Source of the DNA: Candidatus Fermentibacterota bacterium
GTDB taxonomy: Bacteria > Fermentibacterota > Fermentibacteria > Fermentibacterales > Fermentibacteraceae
Length of the DNA stretch: 51,620 bases
Assembly: GCA_012523605.1 (NCBI GenBank)
Contig: JAAYTY010000144.1
Span: 1 to 51,620 of the forward strand
Direction of reading: 5' to 3'
The notes under the pieces are model-generated. The model ran no database searches, was not told the DNA's origin, and was given only the letters and a program-made list of their open reading frames with translations. A program made the translations under genes and the position numbers. This document shows positions 5,408 to 17,587 of this stretch, piece after piece; positions within the stretch are counted from its first letter, which is position 1; each line of letters starts with the position of its first letter.

Positions 5408-6148
5408 TTGAGAATCGTAGACGCCCACTGCCATCTGCTGCCGCTAATCGACGACGGCCCCGGGGGATGGGACGAGGCCGAGGCTCTCCTCGGAAGGCTC
5501 GCCGTCTCTCTGGGGAGCGGCTCGCTGTGCTTCGCCTCTCCTCATGTGAGGTTTTCGGCCTGCGCCGCACAGTCCTCCCCCGTTCATGCCAGGATGGACG
5601 AGTACACGGCGGTCGTGGAGAAGGCCGCGGGAGGGATGAGGGTGGGACTGGCTCCGGAGATCCTTCTCGATGCTCTCTCTCCGGTTCCGCCCGAGCTCTC
5701 CTTCATGTGCTACCCCGGGACGAACCGCCTGCTCGTCGAGCTCCCGCCGCGATTGCCCGGTATGATCGCCGTCCTGATGCTCGGCCGCCTCGCAAGACGC
5801 GGATTCTCGCTGATGCTGGCGCATCCCGAGAGATATCGCTTCGCCCAGAGGAGATCCTCCGCCGTCGTCTCCCTTGCCTCGGCCGGAATAGCACTGCAGA
5901 TCAGCCTGCGCAGCCTGCGAAGCCCCCTTTCCGCCGTCAGGCTAACGGCGGAACGCCTGCTGCGGGACGGCCTCTGCCATGTTCTGGCGAGCGACTGCCA
6001 TCATCCCGGAGATGCCATGCTGACGGAGTGCAGGGGCGAGATCGACACGCTCTCGGGAAGGGGATCCTGGGACATCCTCTGCCGCACGAACCCGTCCGCG
6101 GTGGTCGAGGGCGGGCGACCCGTGCTCCTCAGGGAGGCCCTGCCATGA
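5408..6148 (+). CDS. PHP-fold tyrosine-protein phosphatase, CpsB/CapC/YwqE family
   Basis: MRIVDAHCHLLPLIDDGP, LAHPERYRFAQ and LASDCHHP motifs. TTG start. Confidence 0.85.
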   Translation: MRIVDAHCHLLPLIDDGPGGWDEAEALLGRLAVSLGSGSLCFASPHVRFSACAAQSSPVHARMDEYTAVVEKAAGGMRVGLAPEILLDALSPVPPELSFMCYPGTNRLLVELPPRLPGMIAVLMLGRLARRGFSLMLAHPERYRFAQRRSSAVVSLASAGIALQISLRSLRSPLSAVRLTAERLLRDGLCHVLASDCHHPGDAMLTECRGEIDTLSGRGSWDILCRTNPSAVVEGGRPVLLREALP

Positions 6149-6951
6149 GCCGGCCCGTGTTCCTCGTCATCGGCTCGGCCGGGCTCCTGGGGAGGCACTT
6201 CATGTCCGCCCTGGGCGACTCCGCCACCGGCCTCGACCTTCCGGAGTTCGATCTGCTCGGCGGCTGCGAGGCGGTGCGCTCAGCGGTGAGGTCGTCGGGC
6301 GCCGGGGTGGTCATCAACTGCGCCGCCATGACCGACGTCGACGGCTGCGAGGAGCATCCCGCCGCCGCGTATGCCCTGCACAGGGACGCCGTCGGCATCC
6401 TGGCCTCGGTGTCTCCTCTGCTGGTCACCTTCGGCACCGATCATTCCTTCTACGGTCCCGGCTCCGCTCCGAGGCTCGAAGCCGATCCTACCGCCCCCGC
6501 CAACACCTATGCCAGGAGCAAGCTCCAGGGCGAAGCTCTGGCGCTCGGGACCGGGCGCTCCGTGGTGGTCAGAACCTCCTGGCTCTTCGCCGGCGACAGG
6601 GGCATCGTTCCGTATCTCGCCGGGGATCCGTCCCGCACCGGCCCCGTTCGCGCCGTCACGGACCAGAAGGCGTGCGTCACATACGCCCCGGATCTCGTGG
6701 ATGCAGTGCTTTCGATCCTCCGTGACGGAGGCATGGGCCTTTATCACCTCGTGAACCCCGGAGAGGTCTCTCCGTTCGAACTCGCCGCGGAGCTCCGCTC
6801 CGGGAGCATGGAGGATCCGATCCCCGTGAGATGGGAGGACCTCCGGCTTCCGGCCCGCAGGCCCCGCTACTCCGCCCTGGGAACCTCCAGAGGCTATGTT
6901 CTTCCGTCGCGTCAGGACGCTCTGAATCGCTGGAGGCGAAACAATGGGTGA
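6145..6951 (+). CDS. rfbD: dTDP-4-dehydrorhamnose reductase / RmlD-like sugar nucleotide reductase
   Basis: GSAGLLGRHF, NCAAMTDVDGCE, TFGTDHSFYG, NTYARSKLQGE and RTSWLF motifs. ATG overlaps the upstream TGA. Confidence 0.85.
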   Translation: MSRPVFLVIGSAGLLGRHFMSALGDSATGLDLPEFDLLGGCEAVRSAVRSSGAGVVINCAAMTDVDGCEEHPAAAYALHRDAVGILASVSPLLVTFGTDHSFYGPGSAPRLEADPTAPANTYARSKLQGEALALGTGRSVVVRTSWLFAGDRGIVPYLAGDPSRTGPVRAVTDQKACVTYAPDLVDAVLSILRDGGMGLYHLVNPGEVSPFELAAELRSGSMEDPIPVRWEDLRLPARRPRYSALGTSRGYVLPSRQDALNRWRRNNG

Positions 6952-7504
6952 GATCGGAGACTACCTGGCTGAGGCCGTCGCCGCCCTCGGTTCGCTCGAC
7001 CCCGGCGGGCTCGAGAGGGCCGCCGGCATCTGCGCGGACTCGATCCGCGCCGGAGGCACCGTATTCTTCTGCGGGAACGGTGGGAGCGCCGCCGATTCGA
7101 TGCACCTCGCCGCGGAGCTGGTCGGCCGGTTCGGCAGGGACAGAGCCCCGATCAGAGCCGTTGCGCTGACCGCGGACACGGCTGTCCTCACCGCCGTGGC
7201 GAACGACTACGGATACGACCGGGTGTTCGCGCGGCAGATCGAGGCCCTTGGGCGGACAGGCGACGTGCTCGTCGCCATATCCACCAGCGGATCCTCTCCA
7301 AGCGTCCTGCGGGCGGTCGAAGCGGCCCGCGCGGCCGGCATGAAGGTGGTGGCGATGACGGGTGAGAAGGGCGGAGGATTCGCCGCTTCGGCCGATGCGG
7401 CAGTCGTCTCCCCTTCCGGCTTTCCCGGGCACGTGCAGGAGGTCCTTCTTGCCGCCGGCCACGCCCTGTGCCTCGCCGTGGAGAACTCGGTCCGCGGCTC
7501 ATGA
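6944..7504 (+). CDS. gmhA: Phosphoheptose isomerase (SIS domain)
   Basis: FFCGNGGSAADSMHLAAELVGRF, NDYGYDRVFARQ and ISTSGSSPSVLRA are GmhA hallmarks. Confidence 0.9.
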   Translation: MGEIGDYLAEAVAALGSLDPGGLERAAGICADSIRAGGTVFFCGNGGSAADSMHLAAELVGRFGRDRAPIRAVALTADTAVLTAVANDYGYDRVFARQIEALGRTGDVLVAISTSGSSPSVLRAVEAARAAGMKVVAMTGEKGGGFAASADAAVVSPSGFPGHVQEVLLAAGHALCLAVENSVRGS

Positions 7505-8493
7505 GGAGGGGCAGAACCCTCCTCCAGCTCTCGATCGGCCTCGCCGTGGCGGGGCTCGCTCTGTGGCTGACCTACCGCAGGGTCCCCCCGGGGGATCTGC
7601 TGGATCTCCTGGAGGATGCGCGCTGGGGCTGGCTGCTGGTGGTCCTGCCGCCGCTCGCGGCGAGCTACGTGTTCAGGATCCTGCGATGGATGGTCCTGCT
7701 GGGACCGGTCAGGGCGGTCCGCTTCCGGGATGCTGCGTTCCCTCTTCTGGCTGGCTTCATGGTGAACTCGATCCTCCCGGCAAGGGCCGGCGAGATAGTG
7801 AGGGTTCTGCTCCTGTCACGGCGCACAGGCGTGCCGAAGGCTTCCGCGCTGGGCACGGTGGTTCTCGACAGGATATTCGACGGACTTACGCTGACGGCCA
7901 TGACGCTCGGCTGCATCGCCGGGCTCTGGTCCGGCCTGGGAGCCGGGGTCCGGCTCGGTCTGGTGGCGGCCAGCGCCATGTACGTCTTCATGCTCCTGTT
8001 CGCGGTGGCGCTGCGCAGATGGCGCGGCGGCGCCGCCCGGGCCGTCGCCCGGCCCCTGGCCCGGGCGGGCCTGAAGCGCCCCGCCGAGAAGCTGGAGAGT
8101 GTGCTCCTTTCGTTCTCCGAGGGACTGGCGACCATCCAGAGCGGCAGGGAGGTGCTCTTCCTCGCGCTGACCTCGGCAGGGGTGTGGGGAAGCCTCGCAC
8201 TCTCCATTTACCCGGTGTTCTACGCGCTCGGACTGCCGCTGGCATGGCACTACCCGGTGATTGTGCTCGTTCTGGCCGCCTTCGGCATGCTGGTCCCGAC
8301 ACCCGCCGGCACCGGGACTGTGCATGCCGCTCTCGCAGCTGTGCTCCCCGCAGTGACGGAGCTGACGACCGGGCAGGCCATGGTTCTCGCCCTCCTGTTC
8401 CATGCCACCCAGTTCCTGCCGGTCATAGCGGCAGGCATCGCGGCGGCGGTTCACGAGGGGGTGCGCCCTCTGGAAGTGGCGGAGGCCGGCTGA
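7501..8493 (+). CDS. UPF0104/YbhN-type membrane protein (lysylphosphatidylglycerol synthase TM-region family)
   Basis: Multi-TM protein with RILRWMVLL, NSILPARAGEIVRVLLLSRRTG, TVVLDRIFDGLTL and PTPAGTGTVHAAL. Confidence 0.85.
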   Translation: MRRGRTLLQLSIGLAVAGLALWLTYRRVPPGDLLDLLEDARWGWLLVVLPPLAASYVFRILRWMVLLGPVRAVRFRDAAFPLLAGFMVNSILPARAGEIVRVLLLSRRTGVPKASALGTVVLDRIFDGLTLTAMTLGCIAGLWSGLGAGVRLGLVAASAMYVFMLLFAVALRRWRGGAARAVARPLARAGLKRPAEKLESVLLSFSEGLATIQSGREVLFLALTSAGVWGSLALSIYPVFYALGLPLAWHYPVIVLVLAAFGMLVPTPAGTGTVHAALAAVLPAVTELTTGQAMVLALLFHATQFLPVIAAGIAAAVHEGVRPLEVAEAG

Positions 8494-9172: not shown

Positions 9173-10513
9173 TTGAGCCCGAGAGCGCTCGCATGCATCC
9201 TGACAGCACTGGCCGCCGCATCCTTCGGCTGCGGCAGGTCCGCCGAGCCGGGCGGGGTCGTCGAGGTGGTGTTCTGGCACGCCATGGGAGGACCCCTGGG
9301 CGACGTGCTGGAGGACACCCTGATCGCCGAGTTCAACGCGACACATCCCGGCATCCGGGTGATCCCCGTCTCCATGGGGAATTACAGAGCCCTCAGCCAG
9401 AAGATCATGGCCGCCGCCATGGCCGGCGAACCGCCCGCCCTGGCGCAGGCCTACGAGACATGGACGGCACAGCTCATCAGGGGCGGGGCGATCGTGCCCC
9501 TGGATTCCATGATGGATCTGTCCCCCGCCTTCCGCGATTCGATCTGGCCGGACGTGTTCGACGTCTTCAGACGCGACAACACCTTCGGGGGGCGGATATA
9601 CAGCCTTCCCTTCAACAAGAGCGTGCCTCTCGTCTACTACAATGCGGACCTCTTCGACAGCCTGGGACTGTCGCCCGCGGAGACGTGGGAGGAGCAGAGG
9701 GAGCTCCTCGGGAGGCTCTGCCTGGACTCCAACGGGGACGGCGACCTGCTCGACGAGGGCGATCGATGGGGGGCGGGCATCACCGTGAGCGTCTGGACCT
9801 TCGAGTGCCTGCTGGCGCAGGCCGGAGGCAGTCTCCTCTCCGAAGACGGCACGGAGACCGCCTTCGACTCCCCGATGGGAATCGAGGCGCTGTCGTATCT
9901 CGAGTCGCTCCTCCACGAGGACCGATCGGTCTTCCTCGCCAGCGGTTTCGAGCACCAGAGAGCCTTCTCCGAGCGGAGGACCGGGCTGGTCGAAGGATCC
10001 GTGACCTCGCTGGCCTACCTGCTGGAGGACATGGAGAGGAGGGCCGAGAGCGGTCTTCCGACTTTCAGGATCGGAGTCGCGCCCCTGCCGGCGGGCCGCG
10101 AGCACGCGGTCTTCATAGCCGGGACGAACGTCGTCGTCTTCCGCTCCGACGATCCCCGCCGGGTGGCGGCCGCATGGGAATTCGCGACATGGTTCCTGGA
10201 GCCCCGTCAGCAGGCGAGATGGTTCGCCGGGAGCGGATACCTGCCTGCTGTGAGGTCCGCTCTCCGGGAGCCCGAAGCACTCGAGAAGATCGAGAGGCAC
10301 CCCGGGCTCGAGCGCGTTATCGGCCAGCTCGAATACGCGCGGTTCGAGCCCCAGACCACCGCCTGGTACGACGGCAGGGAGTTCCTCTCCGAAGCCGTGG
10401 AGATAGTGCTGTACGGCAGGATGTCGCCGGAGGAGGCCTTGGAGAGGGCCGCCCGGCTGACCGACGAAGAGATGCGTCTGGACGCCCGGTCTGACCGAAT
10501 GGAGGTCGAATGA
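9173..10513 (+). CDS. ABC-transporter extracellular solute (sugar)-binding lipoprotein
   Basis: TTG start, lipobox AASFGC, VVFWHAMGGPLGDVLEDTLIAEFNATHPGI and SLPFNKSVPLVYYNADLF (family 1 SBP). The longer 9047 start is unlikely. Confidence 0.85.
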   Translation: MSPRALACILTALAAASFGCGRSAEPGGVVEVVFWHAMGGPLGDVLEDTLIAEFNATHPGIRVIPVSMGNYRALSQKIMAAAMAGEPPALAQAYETWTAQLIRGGAIVPLDSMMDLSPAFRDSIWPDVFDVFRRDNTFGGRIYSLPFNKSVPLVYYNADLFDSLGLSPAETWEEQRELLGRLCLDSNGDGDLLDEGDRWGAGITVSVWTFECLLAQAGGSLLSEDGTETAFDSPMGIEALSYLESLLHEDRSVFLASGFEHQRAFSERRTGLVEGSVTSLAYLLEDMERRAESGLPTFRIGVAPLPAGREHAVFIAGTNVVVFRSDDPRRVAAAWEFATWFLEPRQQARWFAGSGYLPAVRSALREPEALEKIERHPGLERVIGQLEYARFEPQTTAWYDGREFLSEAVEIVLYGRMSPEEALERAARLTDEEMRLDARSDRMEVE

Positions 10514-11514
10514 AGCTGCTCCTTCTCGCCCTGCCGCTGGCGGCGGGTCCGGCTCTTGCAGTGACGGTGTCGGAGGCCCGAATGGATGCCGACGGGGACG
10601 GCCTGCCGGACCTCCTCGGGCAGACCGTGACCATAGAGGCCGTGGCCACCTGCGAACCGGACCTGTTCTCCGGGAGCGGCGTCTCCTTCTACGTCCAGGA
10701 CGCTGCGGCCGGCATAAACGTATATGCCTACGACCCGCCGTCCTTCCCCGTGGGGCCGGGCGACCTCCTCCGCATCACCGGCGAGATCGCTCAGTACAAC
10801 GGCCTCACGGAGATAGAACCCTCCTCGCCGGACGACTACGAGTACCTCGGTTCCCCCGGTGTTCCCGAGCCCGTCCAGCTCGCCAGGCACCAGGGAGTCT
10901 CGGAGCCCCTCGAGAGCATGCTCCTCAGGGCCGGAGACCCATCAGGCCCCGTCTGGGTGACTGTGGCGACCACGCCCTCGCAGTCCGGAGGCGGCTTCAA
11001 CTTCAGCGTCTGGAACGGGGAGACCGCCATCGCGGTCAGGGTGAACGGGACCACCGGAATCTCGGTGTCCGGGATCGAGCCGGGGGTGCGGCTCTTCCTC
11101 ACCGGAATCGGCGGCCAGTACGATTCCGAGCCCCCATATACCACCGGCTACCAGCTTCTGCCACGCTACCAGGAGGATCTCGCGTTCTACACCCCGTCCA
11201 TACCGGACTTCTTCCATCTCGACCTGCTGTCGGAATCCCCCTTCTCCCCCTCGTCGGGCGAGGCGATACTCATGGAATACGGGGGAGCGCCGGGGCTCAG
11301 GTTCACCCTGAAGGTGTTCGACAGGGCCGGAAGGGAGGTCGCCCGGCTGGCCAGCTCCAGGGCGGGGGGCGACGTCGTCGAATGGGACGGCAGGGACGAC
11401 AGCGAGGAGATCCTGCCGATTGGACCCTACATCGTCCTTCTCGAGGGGATAGCCCCCGACGGCGGGCGGCTCGTCACGACCGAGACGGTCGTGGTGGCCG
11501 CCGGCCTGGAATGA
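10510..11514 (+). CDS. Secreted OB-fold domain protein with C-terminal FlgD-like Ig domain
   Basis: Signal peptide, SFYVQDAAAGINVYA...GDLLRITGEIAQYNGLTEI (secreted OB-fold), and LKVFDRAGREVARL...WDGRDDSEEILPIGPYIV (FlgD-like). Confidence 0.75.
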   Translation: MKLLLLALPLAAGPALAVTVSEARMDADGDGLPDLLGQTVTIEAVATCEPDLFSGSGVSFYVQDAAAGINVYAYDPPSFPVGPGDLLRITGEIAQYNGLTEIEPSSPDDYEYLGSPGVPEPVQLARHQGVSEPLESMLLRAGDPSGPVWVTVATTPSQSGGGFNFSVWNGETAIAVRVNGTTGISVSGIEPGVRLFLTGIGGQYDSEPPYTTGYQLLPRYQEDLAFYTPSIPDFFHLDLLSESPFSPSSGEAILMEYGGAPGLRFTLKVFDRAGREVARLASSRAGGDVVEWDGRDDSEEILPIGPYIVLLEGIAPDGGRLVTTETVVVAAGLE

Positions 11515-11524
11515 GGTGGTTCCC

Positions 11525-12343
11525 ATGAAAACGATGCTCTTCGCCGCTTCACTCGTGCTGGCCGCCGCCCCGCCCGCCCTCGCGGCCTTCGAAGAGCTGG
11601 AGCTGGGAGTCGCCGACCAGGCGATGGGCTCGACGGGCGTGATGGGGACTGGAGCTGTCTCGGTGCTTTCGAACCCCGCCTCTCCGGCCGGAAGCGCAGG
11701 CTGGTCGGTGACCGCCTCCAGCCGCCTGCCCTTCTCCATCACCGACCTCGCGACCCACGGTCTGGATGTCTCCATGCCCCTGCGCGGAACCTGGCGGGGC
11801 TCGGCGTCCATCCGGCAGTTCGGCTTCAGCGAGTACTCCGAGCAGATGGTGGCCGTGACCATCTCGGGAATGCTCGGGAGGGAGCTCGCCTTCGGGATCC
11901 AGCCCACCCTCGGAGCCGTGAGCATCGGCGACGGGGTTTCGAGCTACGGCTCGGCGACCGCCCTGTCGCTGAACGCCGGATTCCAGGCGAGGATCTGCGG
12001 GCGATGGAGGATAGGGGCGTCGGTCCGCAACCCGTTCGAGAGCGGCATCGGAGAGAGCGGAGAGCACCTCGAGAGGAGGATCGACGCGGGTGTGGCCTAC
12101 GAGCCCTCCGCCGGCATGGAATCCCGCTTCTCGTTGTCGAGGGACTTCCGCGGAACGAGGGTCCACGCCGGGCAGGCCGTCCCGGTCGGCCCTCTGAGCC
12201 TCATGGCCGGAGTCGGCACATCCCCGGTCACCATCTCCGGCGGGCTGTCGGCCTGCGTGTCCGGGGTGAGGCTGGAGTACGCGGTCCAGTCGCATCCCGA
12301 CCTCCAGCCCACGCACCAGGCCGGGATCACCTATGTCTTCTAG
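11525..12343 (+). CDS. PorV/UPF0164-like outer-membrane protein
   Basis: Signal peptide, then LGVADQAMGSTGVMGTGAVSVLSNPAS, typical of PorV/PorQ-type barrels; C-terminal GITYVF. Confidence 0.65.
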   Translation: MKTMLFAASLVLAAAPPALAAFEELELGVADQAMGSTGVMGTGAVSVLSNPASPAGSAGWSVTASSRLPFSITDLATHGLDVSMPLRGTWRGSASIRQFGFSEYSEQMVAVTISGMLGRELAFGIQPTLGAVSIGDGVSSYGSATALSLNAGFQARICGRWRIGASVRNPFESGIGESGEHLERRIDAGVAYEPSAGMESRFSLSRDFRGTRVHAGQAVPVGPLSLMAGVGTSPVTISGGLSACVSGVRLEYAVQSHPDLQPTHQAGITYVF

Positions 12344-14771
12344 CTTCCTGCTCGCGATCCTGGCCGCCGCCGGTCCTTTCGGCAGGGTGGACCTCAACAC
12401 GGCGACCCTGGAGCAGCTCCGCGCACTGGAGGGGATCACCGACGAGCAGGCCGACTCCATCTACTCGCGCGCGCTCTCGACGGGGGGATTCGCGGACATA
12501 TACGAGGTGGCGGAGATACCCGGCATGACTGCATCGAGCCTTGCGTGGCTGAGGGACAACTGCATGGTGTCGCCCCGCGCGGAAGGCTCTCTGAGCCCCG
12601 CGGTGATGGACCTCATGGAAAGGCTCGCGGTCGAGGACGGTCCCGGCGACGCAGCCGTGGACGAATGGGAGAACCTCCTGATCCGCCCGATGCCGGTGAA
12701 CGGCCTGAGGCACTGGGACCTCCGGATGCTCGACAGAGTGAGCATCGTGGACGCCGCCGCCGTCGAGCGGAGACTGCGCGATCTGGGCCCTGTCTCGGGC
12801 GTGGCTTCCCTTCGCGGGAGCGACGGCTTGAGCTACTACGGCTACAGGAATCTCAGGGACTATGTCGCAACCCGCGAGCTGGACCTCTCCAGCACCGACT
12901 TCTTCGGCGGACTGCGCGTGACCGTGGACGGGGGCGCAGGGCGGTCGGAGGGCGAAGGATCGCTGGCTGCGCGCCTGGACGACCTGGGCAGCGCAATCGG
13001 GGACATGGAGTCCGGAGGCAGGGACTATTCGGGCAGTCCCGTCGACAGCGCCGCGCTGTACGAACAGCTCGTTTCGGAGCGCGACGAGCTGGCCGGCGCC
13101 CGAGGCGTGACAGGAAGCGTTCAAAGGCTCCGATTGGGCCTCGGGGACAGGTGGAGAGGGGGCATCAGGCTCTCCCGGGGACGCTGGTCAACCGCCGGGC
13201 ACGGCCTCCTTTCCGGCATGGACATGGGCGTGATAAGCGAGACCTACGACGTCGCGAAGGCTTTCGCCTCCCTGCACCGCCTCGGACCGCTCCACCAGGT
13301 GATACTCGGGAACTACAGGCTCTCCCTCAACCAGGGCCTCCTGGTGGACAACGCCGACGAGCTGATGAGCCGCTCTCTCTACAGGCCCCGGGGTCTGCAT
13401 CCCGACCTCACCTCGACACGGCAGGCCGCGTTCACCGGGGCGGCGTGCGAGGTGCGCAGCGGGCCTCTGGTGGGATACGCCTTCGTCTCGTCGGCCCCCC
13501 GGGACGCCATCATGAACTCCGACGGCACGCCGAACTCGCTCGTGCTCTCCCGCTGGCGCACCTCCGCCATGGCCGGAGCACTGCAGGAGACCGCCGCGGG
13601 AGGCTACGGCTATTTCGACCTGGGCGGCTTCCTTCCCTGCGGGACCTTCGTCGGAGCCGGAGCGCTGACCGTCTCCTGGAGCGACAGCCTGGTCCCCGAC
13701 CCGGAATTCCTGGACATTCCGAACGACGCGGAGGTCTGGAACTGCCCGGAGTACTCCGTCATGCCCCAAGGCGACGCCCTGTCGGCCTGGTCGGTCTCGG
13801 GGCAGACCGTCCTGGGCGGATTCGGCGTCGAGGGGGAGGCCGCGATGCAGGACAACGACGCCATGGCGGCCGTAGGCGGCGCAAGATGGCAGAACGACTG
13901 GTTCTACCTGCTCTGCTCGATAAGGCACTACGACCTGGAATACACAAACCCCTACTGCAGGGGATTCGCGGAGCAGAGCAGATTCGACGATACGGTGTTC
14001 GAGAAGCCCTACTATCTGAACGACCCCTCGGCGGCCGACCTCGCGGACTGGCCGGTTCCGAAGCCCGAGGAGGGGATCTACCTGGAATCCCGCTTCCAGG
14101 TCAGCCGGCAGATTCTGTTTCCCAAGGTCTATCTGGATGTGTGGCGCTCGATCCCCTGGGGCTTCGAGAACTACAGGTTCCAGGGGGAGCTGGAATACAG
14201 GCCCGTGTTCCCCCTCCGGTTCAGGCTGAAGTACAAGCTGCAGGACAAGACGAAGATGCAGGATCTCCTGCCGACAAGCTCGGTGACCCACGAGGCCACG
14301 CTGAGAACCATCGTCCTCCCGGCGGGCGGGGACTACTTCGAAATCGGCGTGCGGGCGGGGCTGGTGGAGCTGACGCCCAACCCTCTCTACACCGACGACA
14401 GGCTGATGAGCGGGGGATTCCTGAGCGCAAGGTGGGAGCACCGCTTCACGCCCGGGTTCTCCGTGCTGGGCGGAACGACGCTCTGGACCACCGACGGGAT
14501 GAGCCAGTGGGAGTTCGAGGACACGGGAATCGACTTCCTGGACGGCAGGGGCACGAAGTTCTACGTGACTGTCAAGGAGCAGATATCCGACAACATCCAG
14601 ATACGCCTCCGGCTGCTGCGCAAGGACACCTTCTTCCCGAGGAACGGGCTCTACAGGCCCGATCCCGAGGACCAGTACTACTACGAGGGCGACCCCGGCA
14701 GCCCCGTGAGGGATTTCGGCGATCACGCGGAGAGCTACGGTATCAACTGCCAGCTCGATCTGCGCTGGTAG
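12333..14771 (+). CDS. Helix-hairpin-helix (ComEA-like) domain fused to a large predicted outer-membrane beta-barrel
   Basis: After the signal peptide: GRVDLNTATLEQLRALEGITDEQADSIYSRALSTGGFADIYEVAEIPGMT (two HHH motifs). The rest is barrel-like and ends ...INCQLDLRW. Confidence 0.8.
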   Translation: MSSSFLLAILAAAGPFGRVDLNTATLEQLRALEGITDEQADSIYSRALSTGGFADIYEVAEIPGMTASSLAWLRDNCMVSPRAEGSLSPAVMDLMERLAVEDGPGDAAVDEWENLLIRPMPVNGLRHWDLRMLDRVSIVDAAAVERRLRDLGPVSGVASLRGSDGLSYYGYRNLRDYVATRELDLSSTDFFGGLRVTVDGGAGRSEGEGSLAARLDDLGSAIGDMESGGRDYSGSPVDSAALYEQLVSERDELAGARGVTGSVQRLRLGLGDRWRGGIRLSRGRWSTAGHGLLSGMDMGVISETYDVAKAFASLHRLGPLHQVILGNYRLSLNQGLLVDNADELMSRSLYRPRGLHPDLTSTRQAAFTGAACEVRSGPLVGYAFVSSAPRDAIMNSDGTPNSLVLSRWRTSAMAGALQETAAGGYGYFDLGGFLPCGTFVGAGALTVSWSDSLVPDPEFLDIPNDAEVWNCPEYSVMPQGDALSAWSVSGQTVLGGFGVEGEAAMQDNDAMAAVGGARWQNDWFYLLCSIRHYDLEYTNPYCRGFAEQSRFDDTVFEKPYYLNDPSAADLADWPVPKPEEGIYLESRFQVSRQILFPKVYLDVWRSIPWGFENYRFQGELEYRPVFPLRFRLKYKLQDKTKMQDLLPTSSVTHEATLRTIVLPAGGDYFEIGVRAGLVELTPNPLYTDDRLMSGGFLSARWEHRFTPGFSVLGGTTLWTTDGMSQWEFEDTGIDFLDGRGTKFYVTVKEQISDNIQIRLRLLRKDTFFPRNGLYRPDPEDQYYYEGDPGSPVRDFGDHAESYGINCQLDLRW

Positions 14772-14784
14772 AGCGGAGGGTGAC

Positions 14785-15978
14785 ATGACATTGCTCGGCG
14801 GCTTGCTCGCTCTCGCCGCGATGACCGGCGGACTCCCGGAGGACTGTCTCCTGGGCACTCCCGGATTTCCGGTCACCGCACGCTCCCTCGCGATGGGCCG
14901 GGCGGAGTTCATGGATCCCTCGCCCATGGGCGCCCTGGCGAACCCGTCGGCGGCCGTCTCCGCCGGCGTCGGGCTGTCTCTCTGCGCCTCCGCCGGGATG
15001 GACCTGGAGATGGAGAAGAGGACCCGGACCGTCTACGATTCATTCGGGAGTTCCATCGGGGAGGCCGAGCACTCCTTCGACCGTTCGGCCGACCTCTTCC
15101 CGGGAGGCGTGGCCGCTTCGCTGGCCGGTTTCGACGGCATGCCCCGGGGGCTCGGGCTCGCGGCCGGCTGGAGGGCGCGGAACGGCTTCGGCTACGACTG
15201 GGACAGGGAGGTGAGGAGCGAGTACTACGCCCTGCTCGGAAGCGAGGCCCTCTCCATATCCGGCACGGCCGGGGAACTCTGCGCCTCGGCGTCGTTCTCT
15301 CCCCTCGATGCTCTCTCCCTCGGATTGGGGGCGGGCTGGCTCTCGTGCACGCGGGAGGAGACCTGGAGGCAGATCTGGGTGGACGAGAGCATTCCCGACG
15401 TACTCGAGACCCAGGAATCCGACCTCGAGGTCGTGACGGTCCGCGCCGCGTTCACCGCGCGCCCCTCCCGAAGGGTGACGGCTTCTGCGGGAGTCGAGGC
15501 CCCACTCTCGGCCGGATGGTCCGGAGACGCCGACGGCCCGCTCGACCTTCCGCCCCTCGCCCGCGCCGGCTTCCTCTGGATTCCCGGAAACTCCCTCAGG
15601 AGCGTCTTCACCGCGGAATTCTCCTACAGGGCGATGTCCGGTGCGAGATTCGACGGCGCGGACATGGGTCTGCGTGACTCCTGGAGCGCGTCCGCCGGCG
15701 TGGAGAACAGCCTGCCCGGAGGCGGGCCCGAATGCCGCTTCGGCTTCAGATACGACCGCTCCCCCATTGCGCGCTGCCTCGACTGCGTGTCCGTGACCGC
15801 CGGTCTCGGCTTCGACCTCTCCGGATGGACCCTGGATGCCGGAGGCCTTTTCTCCCCGAGGACGTGGGAGCAGGTGGATGTCGGCTCGCTCCCGTCCTTC
15901 TCCGAAGGCGACAGCCTCTCCGTCGAGGAGACGGAGACTGTCCTGCTGCTCTCACTGAGCCGCAGGATCTCGCTGTAG
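14785..15978 (+). CDS. Predicted outer-membrane beta-barrel protein, PorV-like
   Basis: LGTPGFPVTARSLAMGRAEFMDPSPMGALANPSAA N-terminal signature; amphipathic strands throughout. Confidence 0.6.
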   Translation: MTLLGGLLALAAMTGGLPEDCLLGTPGFPVTARSLAMGRAEFMDPSPMGALANPSAAVSAGVGLSLCASAGMDLEMEKRTRTVYDSFGSSIGEAEHSFDRSADLFPGGVAASLAGFDGMPRGLGLAAGWRARNGFGYDWDREVRSEYYALLGSEALSISGTAGELCASASFSPLDALSLGLGAGWLSCTREETWRQIWVDESIPDVLETQESDLEVVTVRAAFTARPSRRVTASAGVEAPLSAGWSGDADGPLDLPPLARAGFLWIPGNSLRSVFTAEFSYRAMSGARFDGADMGLRDSWSASAGVENSLPGGGPECRFGFRYDRSPIARCLDCVSVTAGLGFDLSGWTLDAGGLFSPRTWEQVDVGSLPSFSEGDSLSVEETETVLLLSLSRRISL

Positions 15979-15988
15979 GGCTGGCGTC

Positions 15989-17587
15989 GTGCGGACGGCG
16001 GCGGCGCTCCTCCTGCTCTCGGCTGCTTCGGCGCCTTGCCTCGCGAGGGTTTTCACTCTGGACATACTGCACACGAACGACGTCCATGGAGGGATCGTCT
16101 CCCGCGACGCCACGTTCCTCAACCCGGACTTCCCGCCCGAGATCGGCGGCGCCGCCTGGCTCGCCTCCTATGTGGACTCGGTCAGAAGGGAGGCGGCCGG
16201 AACCGGGGGGTACGTACTCCTCCTCGACGCCGGTGACATCTACCAGGGCACCCCCGTCGGCGGCTACGACCTCGGAGCTTCCGTGGTGCGGTGGATGAAC
16301 TTCGTCGGCTACGATGCCATGACGCTCGGGAACCACGATTTCGACGACGGAGCGGCCAACGCCCTCGCGATCGCCGCGGCCGCGGACTTTCCGGTGCTGT
16401 CCTGCAACTTCGTCGAGGAAGCCACCGGGCTTCCCCCCTGCGGCATCGAGCCCATGACATTCTTCGAATTCGAGGGCGTGAAGATCGCGCTCATCGGACT
16501 CTCGACCTCCGATACGTGGGGGCTGGTGGACCCTGCGCTGCTGGAGGGCTACTCCTTCCTCGACGAGGAGGAGTCCGTCGGAGCGGCGATGGAGGAGGCC
16601 CGCCGCAGCGGCGCCGACATCGTCTTCGTCCTGTCCCACCTGGGTCAACCCTCGGATCCCGGAAGATACGTGGAGTCCGTGAGACAGGCCTGGATCTCGG
16701 GGGAGGAGTTCGACAAGGAGTTCGCCCTCAACAACGCCGAACTCTCCTCGCTCCTGCCGGGAATCGCCCTCATCGTGTCGGGCCACATCCACTACGGCCT
16801 TGCGCGCCCCTGGGTGAACCCCTTCACCGGAACGATCGTGGTGCAGGGCTATGCGAACGGGACGGGTGTGGGGCACATCAGGCTGCTGATAGACTCCGAG
16901 GCCCGCACGGTGACAGGGTACGAACTGCCGCGCGGCGAGGAGATCGTCAACCTCCTCCACGACGAGTTCCAGCCGGACCCCGAGGCTCTGGCGCTGATCG
17001 AGTCCTTCAGGACCGTGGCCGAGGCGGGCATGGACGAGGTGATAGGAGAGGCCCTGGAGGAGATCCCCAGGGGAGGCGCCGAGCATCCGATGGGAAGGCT
17101 GGTCGCCGATGCCGTGCTGGAATGTACGGGGGCCGACGTTGCCCTTGTGAACCGCGGGGGGATCAGGTCGTCCATTCCCAGGGGCTTGATCACGCCGAGG
17201 ATGATCTACGAGGCCATTCCGTTCGAGGAGGACCTCTATCTCGTCGAGGTGACCGGAGCCCAGCTCAGGAGGATTCTGGAGACCGGGATGCAGGGGCGCA
17301 GGCGCGACATGGAGCCGGCTGGATTCACCGCGGTGAGAAACCAGGCTCTGCCGGACATGGCCAAGATCGAATCCCTGATCGTGGGTGGCGAACCGGTCGA
17401 TTCGTCCAGAGCCTACGTCCTCGCCACCACGGGCTATCTAGTCCAGGGCAACGTTGGATACGACGTCATGAGGGAGTTCGAGGCGGTGCCCGCGGGATGC
17501 ACCCTGTTCGACGCGGTGGTCGCGTATGTGAAGGCTCACAGCCCCCTCGAGCCGGACGAGGTTCCCAGAATCCGATGGACGGAGTAG
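15989..17587 (+). CDS. 5'-nucleotidase / UDP-sugar diphosphatase / 2',3'-cyclic phosphodiesterase (UshA-like)
   Basis: LDILHTNDVHGG, LLDAGDIYQGTPVGG, TLGNHDFDDG, VSGHIHYG, LVADAVLECTGADVALVNRGGIR. Signal peptide. Confidence 0.93.
   Translation: MRTAAALLLLSAASAPCLARVFTLDILHTNDVHGGIVSRDATFLNPDFPPEIGGAAWLASYVDSVRREAAGTGGYVLLLDAGDIYQGTPVGGYDLGASVVRWMNFVGYDAMTLGNHDFDDGAANALAIAAAADFPVLSCNFVEEATGLPPCGIEPMTFFEFEGVKIALIGLSTSDTWGLVDPALLEGYSFLDEEESVGAAMEEARRSGADIVFVLSHLGQPSDPGRYVESVRQAWISGEEFDKEFALNNAELSSLLPGIALIVSGHIHYGLARPWVNPFTGTIVVQGYANGTGVGHIRLLIDSEARTVTGYELPRGEEIVNLLHDEFQPDPEALALIESFRTVAEAGMDEVIGEALEEIPRGGAEHPMGRLVADAVLECTGADVALVNRGGIRSSIPRGLITPRMIYEAIPFEEDLYLVEVTGAQLRRILETGMQGRRRDMEPAGFTAVRNQALPDMAKIESLIVGGEPVDSSRAYVLATTGYLVQGNVGYDVMREFEAVPAGCTLFDAVVAYVKAHSPLEPDEVPRIRWTE

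Follow-up and report, generated by a model that had tools for sequence, protein, structure and literature searches.

Can a handful of co-encoded envelope proteins capture nucleic acid outside an uncultured bacterium and deliver it to the cell as nucleotides? The question is raised by a six-gene operon of a Candidatus Fermentibacterota bacterium (contig JAAYTY010000144.1, assembly GCA_012523605.1), located in a stretch of 51,620 nucleotides that we refer to in its entirety as the window. A first-pass annotation described tightly packed genes for a solute-binding lipoprotein, a secreted protein with oligonucleotide/oligosaccharide-binding (OB) folds, two PorV-like outer-membrane proteins, a ComEA-like helix-hairpin-helix (HhH) outer-membrane barrel and a UshA-like nucleotidase, and proposed that together they capture and salvage DNA or RNA at the cell surface. 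Based on comparison of the operon with related loci and on analysis of its individual proteins, we consider it on balance probable that the operon combines nucleic-acid capture by a protein exported through the type IX secretion system (T9SS) with nucleotide import, and serves scavenging at the outer membrane and in the periplasm. The hypothesis, now partly supported, is stronger than when it was derived from domain content alone.

Conservation of the operon across phyla

The operon occupies positions 9173-17587 of the window on the + strand and consists of the following genes, designated A to F:

9173..10513, + strand: A, solute-binding lipoprotein of the UgpB branch of CUT1 ATP-binding cassette (ABC) importers (TTG start; Pfam and PDB comparison)
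10510..11514, + strand: B, secreted protein with two OB folds and an FlgD_ig C-terminal domain (AlphaFold, Foldseek, homologue profiles)
11516..12343, + strand: C, small outer-membrane protein, weakly PorV/PorQ-family-like (position in the module, homologue alignment)
12333..14771, + strand: D, HhH-plus-barrel outer-membrane protein (HHH_3, structural model, multi-phylum family)
14785..15978, + strand: E, putative outer-membrane protein (stays 3' of D in several phyla)
15989..17587, + strand: F, UshA-like secreted 5'-nucleotidase (Pfam, residue alignment)

All six open reading frames (ORFs) were found as first described, with junctions of -11 to +13 bases (overlaps or gaps). Scans for promoters and terminators returned no signal exceeding that of shuffled sequences. 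The relatives of the window with named records (Fermentibacterota, Hyd24-12) include Aegiribacteria, Sabulitectum and other Fermentibacteria. D is present in 37 of the 42 genomes of the order, and in the loci fetched from it the genes follow a single order, A-B-C-D-E-F, contig ends aside. Profile searches recovered the same module in other phyla. Eisenbacteria records and their relatives (L104, L105, L106, L109, L110) have the arrangement A-B-B'-C-D-E(-F), where B' is an additional protein described below, and Edwardsbacteria (L094) have A-B-C-D-E-F. WOR-3, UBP14 and further genomes encode B-C-D with or without E and F, Gemmatimonadota B-C-D-E, and Cloacimonadota D-E-F. Because the linkage is conserved across phyla, chance association of these genes is ruled out, and the possibility that the linkage is not conserved, named at the outset as one that would undermine the hypothesis, can be firmly rejected.

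Upstream of the operon, genes at 5408-8493 of the window encode, as judged by eye, a putative PHP-type phosphatase, dTDP-rhamnose-type reductase, GmhA-like isomerase and UPF0104-type membrane protein. They precede FmdB and A, and this order is retained in most relatives.

The solute-binding protein and its importer

In profile searches A matched SBP_bac_8 (5.5e-30) and also SBP_bac_1, with a UgpB match below the cut-off. It starts with TTG at position 9173, followed by a lipobox (..SFGC). The nearest solved chains are those of the 7c14/7c0f series (3e-41, 145 bits), which we take to be the U3G dinucleotide-binding protein of Thermus; they outscore E. coli UgpB, which matches A over its full length (1e-29, ~107 bits). 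In PMC12718374, phosphate binding by UgpB and by the glycerophosphocholine (GPC)- and U3G-binding proteins is attributed to a pair of Tyr and a pair of Ser residues. When aligned with E. coli UgpB and the 7c14 chain, A retains all four of these ligands. As for the Trp clamp of UgpB proteins that truly bind glycerol-3-phosphate (G3P), A has one Trp near the site, in a region where the alignment is ambiguous.

A has the solute-binding fold and the lipoprotein signal of the UgpB branch of CUT1, and the cognate permeases and ATPase were found as well. In Eisenbacteria and Edwardsbacteria, UgpA-UgpE lie directly upstream of A; these permeases are 50-60% identical to those of Fermentibacterota and belong with them to one subfamily. 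Edwardsbacteria additionally encode a CUT1-type (TOBE-type) ATPase downstream of the module. In the window's own genome the importer genes are spread over three loci, with one UgpE-like permease locus and a UgpC-like ATPase at 49% identity. What looked like a 504-aa permease 'with N-terminal extension' results from out-of-frame read-through ahead of the UgpE gene; UgpA and UgpE are encoded separately. Loss patterns are also informative: in G005, a genome of 98% completeness, A, B, D and UgpE are missing and ComEC is kept, and its genes for the PorV-family-like protein, the small protein and an HhH-metallo-β-lactamase fusion (HhH-MBL, see below) are still contiguous. A presumed second co-loss, in G002, was discarded, since A and B are present there and the 4.5-kb contig simply stops after B; the co-loss is therefore a single event. 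Based on the gene order in other phyla and the co-loss in G005, UgpAE are the most likely partners of A, and this importer is most likely tied to the outer-membrane module.

The secreted OB-fold protein

Profile searches with B of the window retrieved no significant family match: FlgD_ig came near the threshold (1.2e-5, 25.7 bits for a cut-off of 27) and ExeM/NucH matched weakly (0.0019). Its AlphaFold model (pLDDT 91) has, as top Foldseek matches, the tandem-OB DNA-binding HIN-200 domains (E-value 2.6e-6, probability 1.0), with Teb1 also among the best matches, at low TM-scores of 0.2-0.4. The model and these matches support the OB architecture originally assigned to B. The following regions of B can be delineated:

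10561..11193, + strand: tandem OB region, residues 18-228, net acidic (model, Foldseek, charge count)
10585..10611, + strand: DxDxDGxxD putative Ca2+-binding loop, residues 26-34 (read from sequence)
11227..11511, + strand: FlgD_ig-type C-terminal domain, ending in VVVAAGLE (profile search, tail comparison)

Homologues of B in the same operon position match OB_tRNA_anti-codon (2.2e-19), LTD and DUF5689 (4.7e-10 and 7.6e-9, a model that also gives matches in Bacillus subtilis and Bacteroides controls), and the OB region of one relative matches ExeM/NucH (3e-21). For DUF5689, B of the window is below significance and its own genome contains no significant match. The DxDxDGxxD loop is mostly kept in the Fermentibacterota rows of the alignment and may confer a Ca2+-dependent role on B.

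With respect to export, the search for T9SS translocon components yielded a SprA_N match in the genome, and FlgD_ig-type domains occur at many further sites in it. Module-wide, the C-termini of B proteins conform roughly to the consensus VVxGxxL[DEK]. This tail differs from the RKMVLLK-type ends that other cargo-like proteins carry in related genomes, and it may point to a dedicated partner in sorting. In Eisenbacteria-type operons, to which it is apparently specific, the second and larger protein B' (LTD, OB and FlgD_ig domains) is encoded between B and C (3847-6894 in L104, 3930-6965 in L105).

The HhH barrel and the small outer-membrane proteins

D matches HHH_3 above the cut-off (7.7e-8), and its model (pLDDT 83) comprises two (HhH)2 domains (approximately residues 20-178) followed by a barrel of about 24 strands:

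12390..12566, + strand: first (HhH)2 domain, residues 20-78, non-canonical, net charge about -6 (model, sequence)
12666..12866, + strand: second (HhH)2 domain, residues 112-178, with an invariant Asp-Ala in the first hairpin (model, alignment)
12900..14765, + strand: barrel of about 24 strands, residues 190-811 (DSSP of the model)

The description of D as an HhH-bearing outer-membrane barrel thus agrees with both the profile match and the prediction. Among PDB structures, Foldseek ranked large barrels best, the FimD and PapC ushers first. With TM-scores of only about 0.3, this likeness reflects barrel size alone, and we do not regard D as an usher.

The two proteins flanking D were initially both called PorV-like. 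Neither C nor E matches any Pfam family, and NCBIfam gave no PorV match for either. For C the assignment survives in a weak form: its Eisenbacterial-type homologues align (47-52 bits) with a PorV/PorQ-family protein encoded at a second locus of the window's genome, itself a clear member of that family (PorV_fam, 2.8e-44). For E it could not be retained.

The nucleotidase

F contains the Metallophos and 5_nucleotid_C domains, and its alignment with UshA shows that all metal-binding and catalytic residues are kept, including the two-metal site and the His-Asp dyad. At the positions of F429 and F498, which sandwich the nucleobase in UshA, F of the window has F and Y, both aromatic. Judged by these residues, the active site and the base-stacking aromatics are conserved as expected of a UshA-like nucleotidase. 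It was initially considered that the solute-binding protein and the nucleotidase might act on unrelated sugars; the phosphate ligands of A and the retained residues of F point elsewhere.

Nucleases linked to the module

A second Fermentibacterota cluster (L120, G000:C86, 1325-5530) encodes a fusion of a ComEA-type HhH domain with the C-terminal domain (CTD) of ComEC (the HhH-MBL protein), followed by UgpA, UgpE, a small secreted protein and a PorV/PorQ-family outer-membrane protein. In essentially every locus fetched from Fermentibacterota the fusion adjoins UgpAE, and its HhH hairpins in L120 are of the canonical GIG type. Mn-dependent nuclease activity has been demonstrated for the ComEC CTD (PMC8579336). 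Because ComEC of the window's own genome is without an MBL domain, the fusion may represent a detached nuclease domain of ComEC. In one Gemmatimonadota genome (L114, 11831-15895), B-C-D-E are followed by Endonuclease I with a T9SS-like tail, a ComEC-type MBL protein and a 600-aa HhH protein.

Several further arrangements were noted. ORFs that by eye resemble IS5-type and Y1/RAYT-like transposases (L120 67-892 and 5949-7112) flank the UgpAE/HhH-MBL cluster and might be linked to the split of the importer from the main operon. Another region (L163, G007:C31, 3710-14845) encodes an LTD protein, a secreted ComEC-CTD-like MBL protein with a sorting-type tail, a multi-OB protein, an outer-membrane-like protein with a C-terminal canonical ComEA HhH fusion and a putative 500-aa barrel, and is possibly another envelope system for handling nucleic acids. 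Similarly to L163, the window's own genome has an MBL protein beside an 804-aa OB-fold/fn3 protein (L162, G000:C111, 6259-10135).

Proposed function and alternative explanations

Taken together, the proteins can be arranged into the following scenario. B, exported by the T9SS, would grab nucleic acid at the surface via its tandem OB folds, and D, assisted by the small outer-membrane proteins C and E, would pass nucleic acid or oligonucleotides across the outer membrane, its HhH domains presumably facing the periplasm as a gate or docking module. Nucleases would then complete the breakdown, the ComEA-HhH/ComEC-CTD fusion being the best candidate in Fermentibacterota, and Endonuclease I together with the MBL protein in Gemmatimonadota. 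F would strip phosphate from nucleotides, and A might pass on a product bearing a phosphate or phosphodiester, such as a nucleotide or dinucleotide, which UgpA-UgpE-UgpC would import. That B is at the surface, what D conveys and A binds, in which order and direction the steps run, and that the substrate is nucleic acid are all predictions from sequence comparison.

A number of observations weigh against this scenario. The hairpins of D are without the GhG motifs and the Lys signature of DNA contact, and this holds family-wide; moreover, D of the window has an acidic first HhH domain. D therefore differs from ComEA-type binders (two GhG hairpins with basic residues) and is not established as a DNA binder, so that DNA binding by its HhH domains is not upheld as a supported claim. 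Both OB domains of B are acidic as well (net charge -16 and -4), and charge-driven binding of nucleic acid is accordingly not expected without metal ions. The family of A also binds G3P and GPC, and glycerophosphodiesters could be ligands of A. In F, the UshA contacts R375, R379, N431 and D504 are replaced, as in most Fermentibacterota; it is hence UshA-like, not UshA itself. The operon in the window includes no nuclease, and G005 has retained both HhH-MBL and ComEC despite loss of the importer, which weakens the case for HhH-MBL as an obligate part; it may act in another process, perhaps transformation. Finally, homologues of D occur without A and F nearby in Coatesbacteria (L096) and several WOR-3; in L096, B and C are also absent from the vicinity of D. 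The proposal of DNA/RNA capture and salvage is partly supported, by the linkage, UgpAE, the neighbouring nucleases and the DUF5689 and OB matches of B relatives, whereas the signature expected in D is missing.

Some of these points would also be compatible with scavenging of phosphodiesters other than nucleic acid (glycerophosphocholine, glycerol-3-phosphate or nucleotide-sugars), in which OB and HhH domains would be purely structural. A does belong to the UgpB branch with its phosphate ligands and matches E. coli UgpB along its full length, UshA also hydrolyses UDP-sugars, the HhH domains of D are without DNA-contact residues, and the OB domains of B are acidic. We nevertheless regard this explanation as unlikely, given that the nearest solved relative of A beats UgpB (145 versus 107 bits), that nucleases are linked to the module in other phyla, that B relatives match OB_tRNA_anti-codon and ExeM-type proteins, and that F keeps both base-stacking aromatic positions. 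Alternatively, the operon might provide the outer-membrane part of natural transformation: B would bind DNA, D would pass double-stranded DNA, the fusion would trim one strand and ComEC would import the other. Relatives of B match DUF5689, the family of Riemerella RA0C_RS04920, and the window's genome combines a ComEC devoid of MBL with the separate ComEA-ComEC-CTD fusion. Of the transformation machinery, ComEC and ComEA/ComEC-CTD-like genes were the only ones seen. The most conserved companions are the solute-binding protein of an ABC importer and a nucleotidase, neither of which is needed for transformation, and in G005 ComEC and HhH-MBL persist although A, B, D and the permeases are gone. 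Since, in addition, B of the window is below significance for DUF5689 and homology of D to the Riemerella barrel is not established, we consider a role in transformation quite improbable.

The operon could also be an accessory to the cell envelope or T9SS, acting in sorting or anchoring of surface proteins, with the solute-binding protein and nucleotidase as bystanders. The weak PorV/PorQ likeness of C, the FlgD_ig tail of B with its module-specific C-terminus and the sugar-nucleotide-type genes near the operon would fit. Yet coupling of the solute-binding protein to the permeases, the co-loss and the linked nucleases would be left unexplained, and G005 has several FlgD_ig-type tails but no module, making this the most remote of the explanations considered here. 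Nucleic-acid scavenging thus remains the interpretation we favour.

Relation to known systems

The gene set was not found described in the open-access literature searched, and related systems resemble it in part. Transformation of Riemerella anatipestifer depends on three proteins, one of the DUF5689 family, a neighbouring barrel and one with HhH domains (RA0C_RS04920/RS04915/RS02645; PMC8459023). As in the module, distant B relatives of which match DUF5689, a secreted protein is combined there with a barrel and HhH domains. In Riemerella, however, a gene of its own encodes the HhH protein, which is predicted to be periplasmic, the barrel carries a CarboxypepD_reg domain, and the published set includes no ABC importer or nucleotidase. 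With the UgpABCE importer and the Thermus U3G-binding protein (CUT1) the module shares A, UgpA, UgpE, a UgpC-like ATPase and the conserved phosphate ligands, but the genes are dispersed in the window's genome and no outer-membrane module has been described for Ugp. A working analogy is provided by the SUS systems of Bacteroidota, in which a surface binder, an outer-membrane barrel, a degradative enzyme and an importer are co-encoded. Profile searches of the six operon proteins found no match to SusC (TonB-dependent) or SusD, so that by this test the module is not a SUS system; D is a barrel of about 24 predicted strands fronted by HhH domains. ExeM/NucH resembles the OB region of one B relative, and LTD occurs in B', but B is without a nuclease domain. 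The extracellular nuclease YhcR likewise has OB folds together with a 5'-nucleotidase domain. Finally, DNA-degradation loci of Izemoplasmatales (PMC8289736) likewise cluster a nucleic-acid-binding/LTD protein, nucleotide-processing enzymes and transporters; these bacteria have no outer membrane, hence no barrel, and use other transporters.

We tentatively suggest, while considering it doubtful in this full form, that the module is a new outer-membrane machine for nucleic-acid uptake, a SUS-like counterpart for DNA and RNA composed of a T9SS-exported tandem-OB protein, a barrel of about 24 strands with non-canonical HhH domains and a dinucleotide ABC importer, with a wide distribution across uncultured phyla, among them Fermentibacterota, Eisenbacteria and WOR-3. 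A possible new outer-membrane channel for nucleic acids would bear on two open questions, namely, by what route polymers of the size of DNA get through the outer membrane to serve as nutrients, and by what means Bacteroidota-like bacteria that are without the usual pilus and secretin genes take up DNA.

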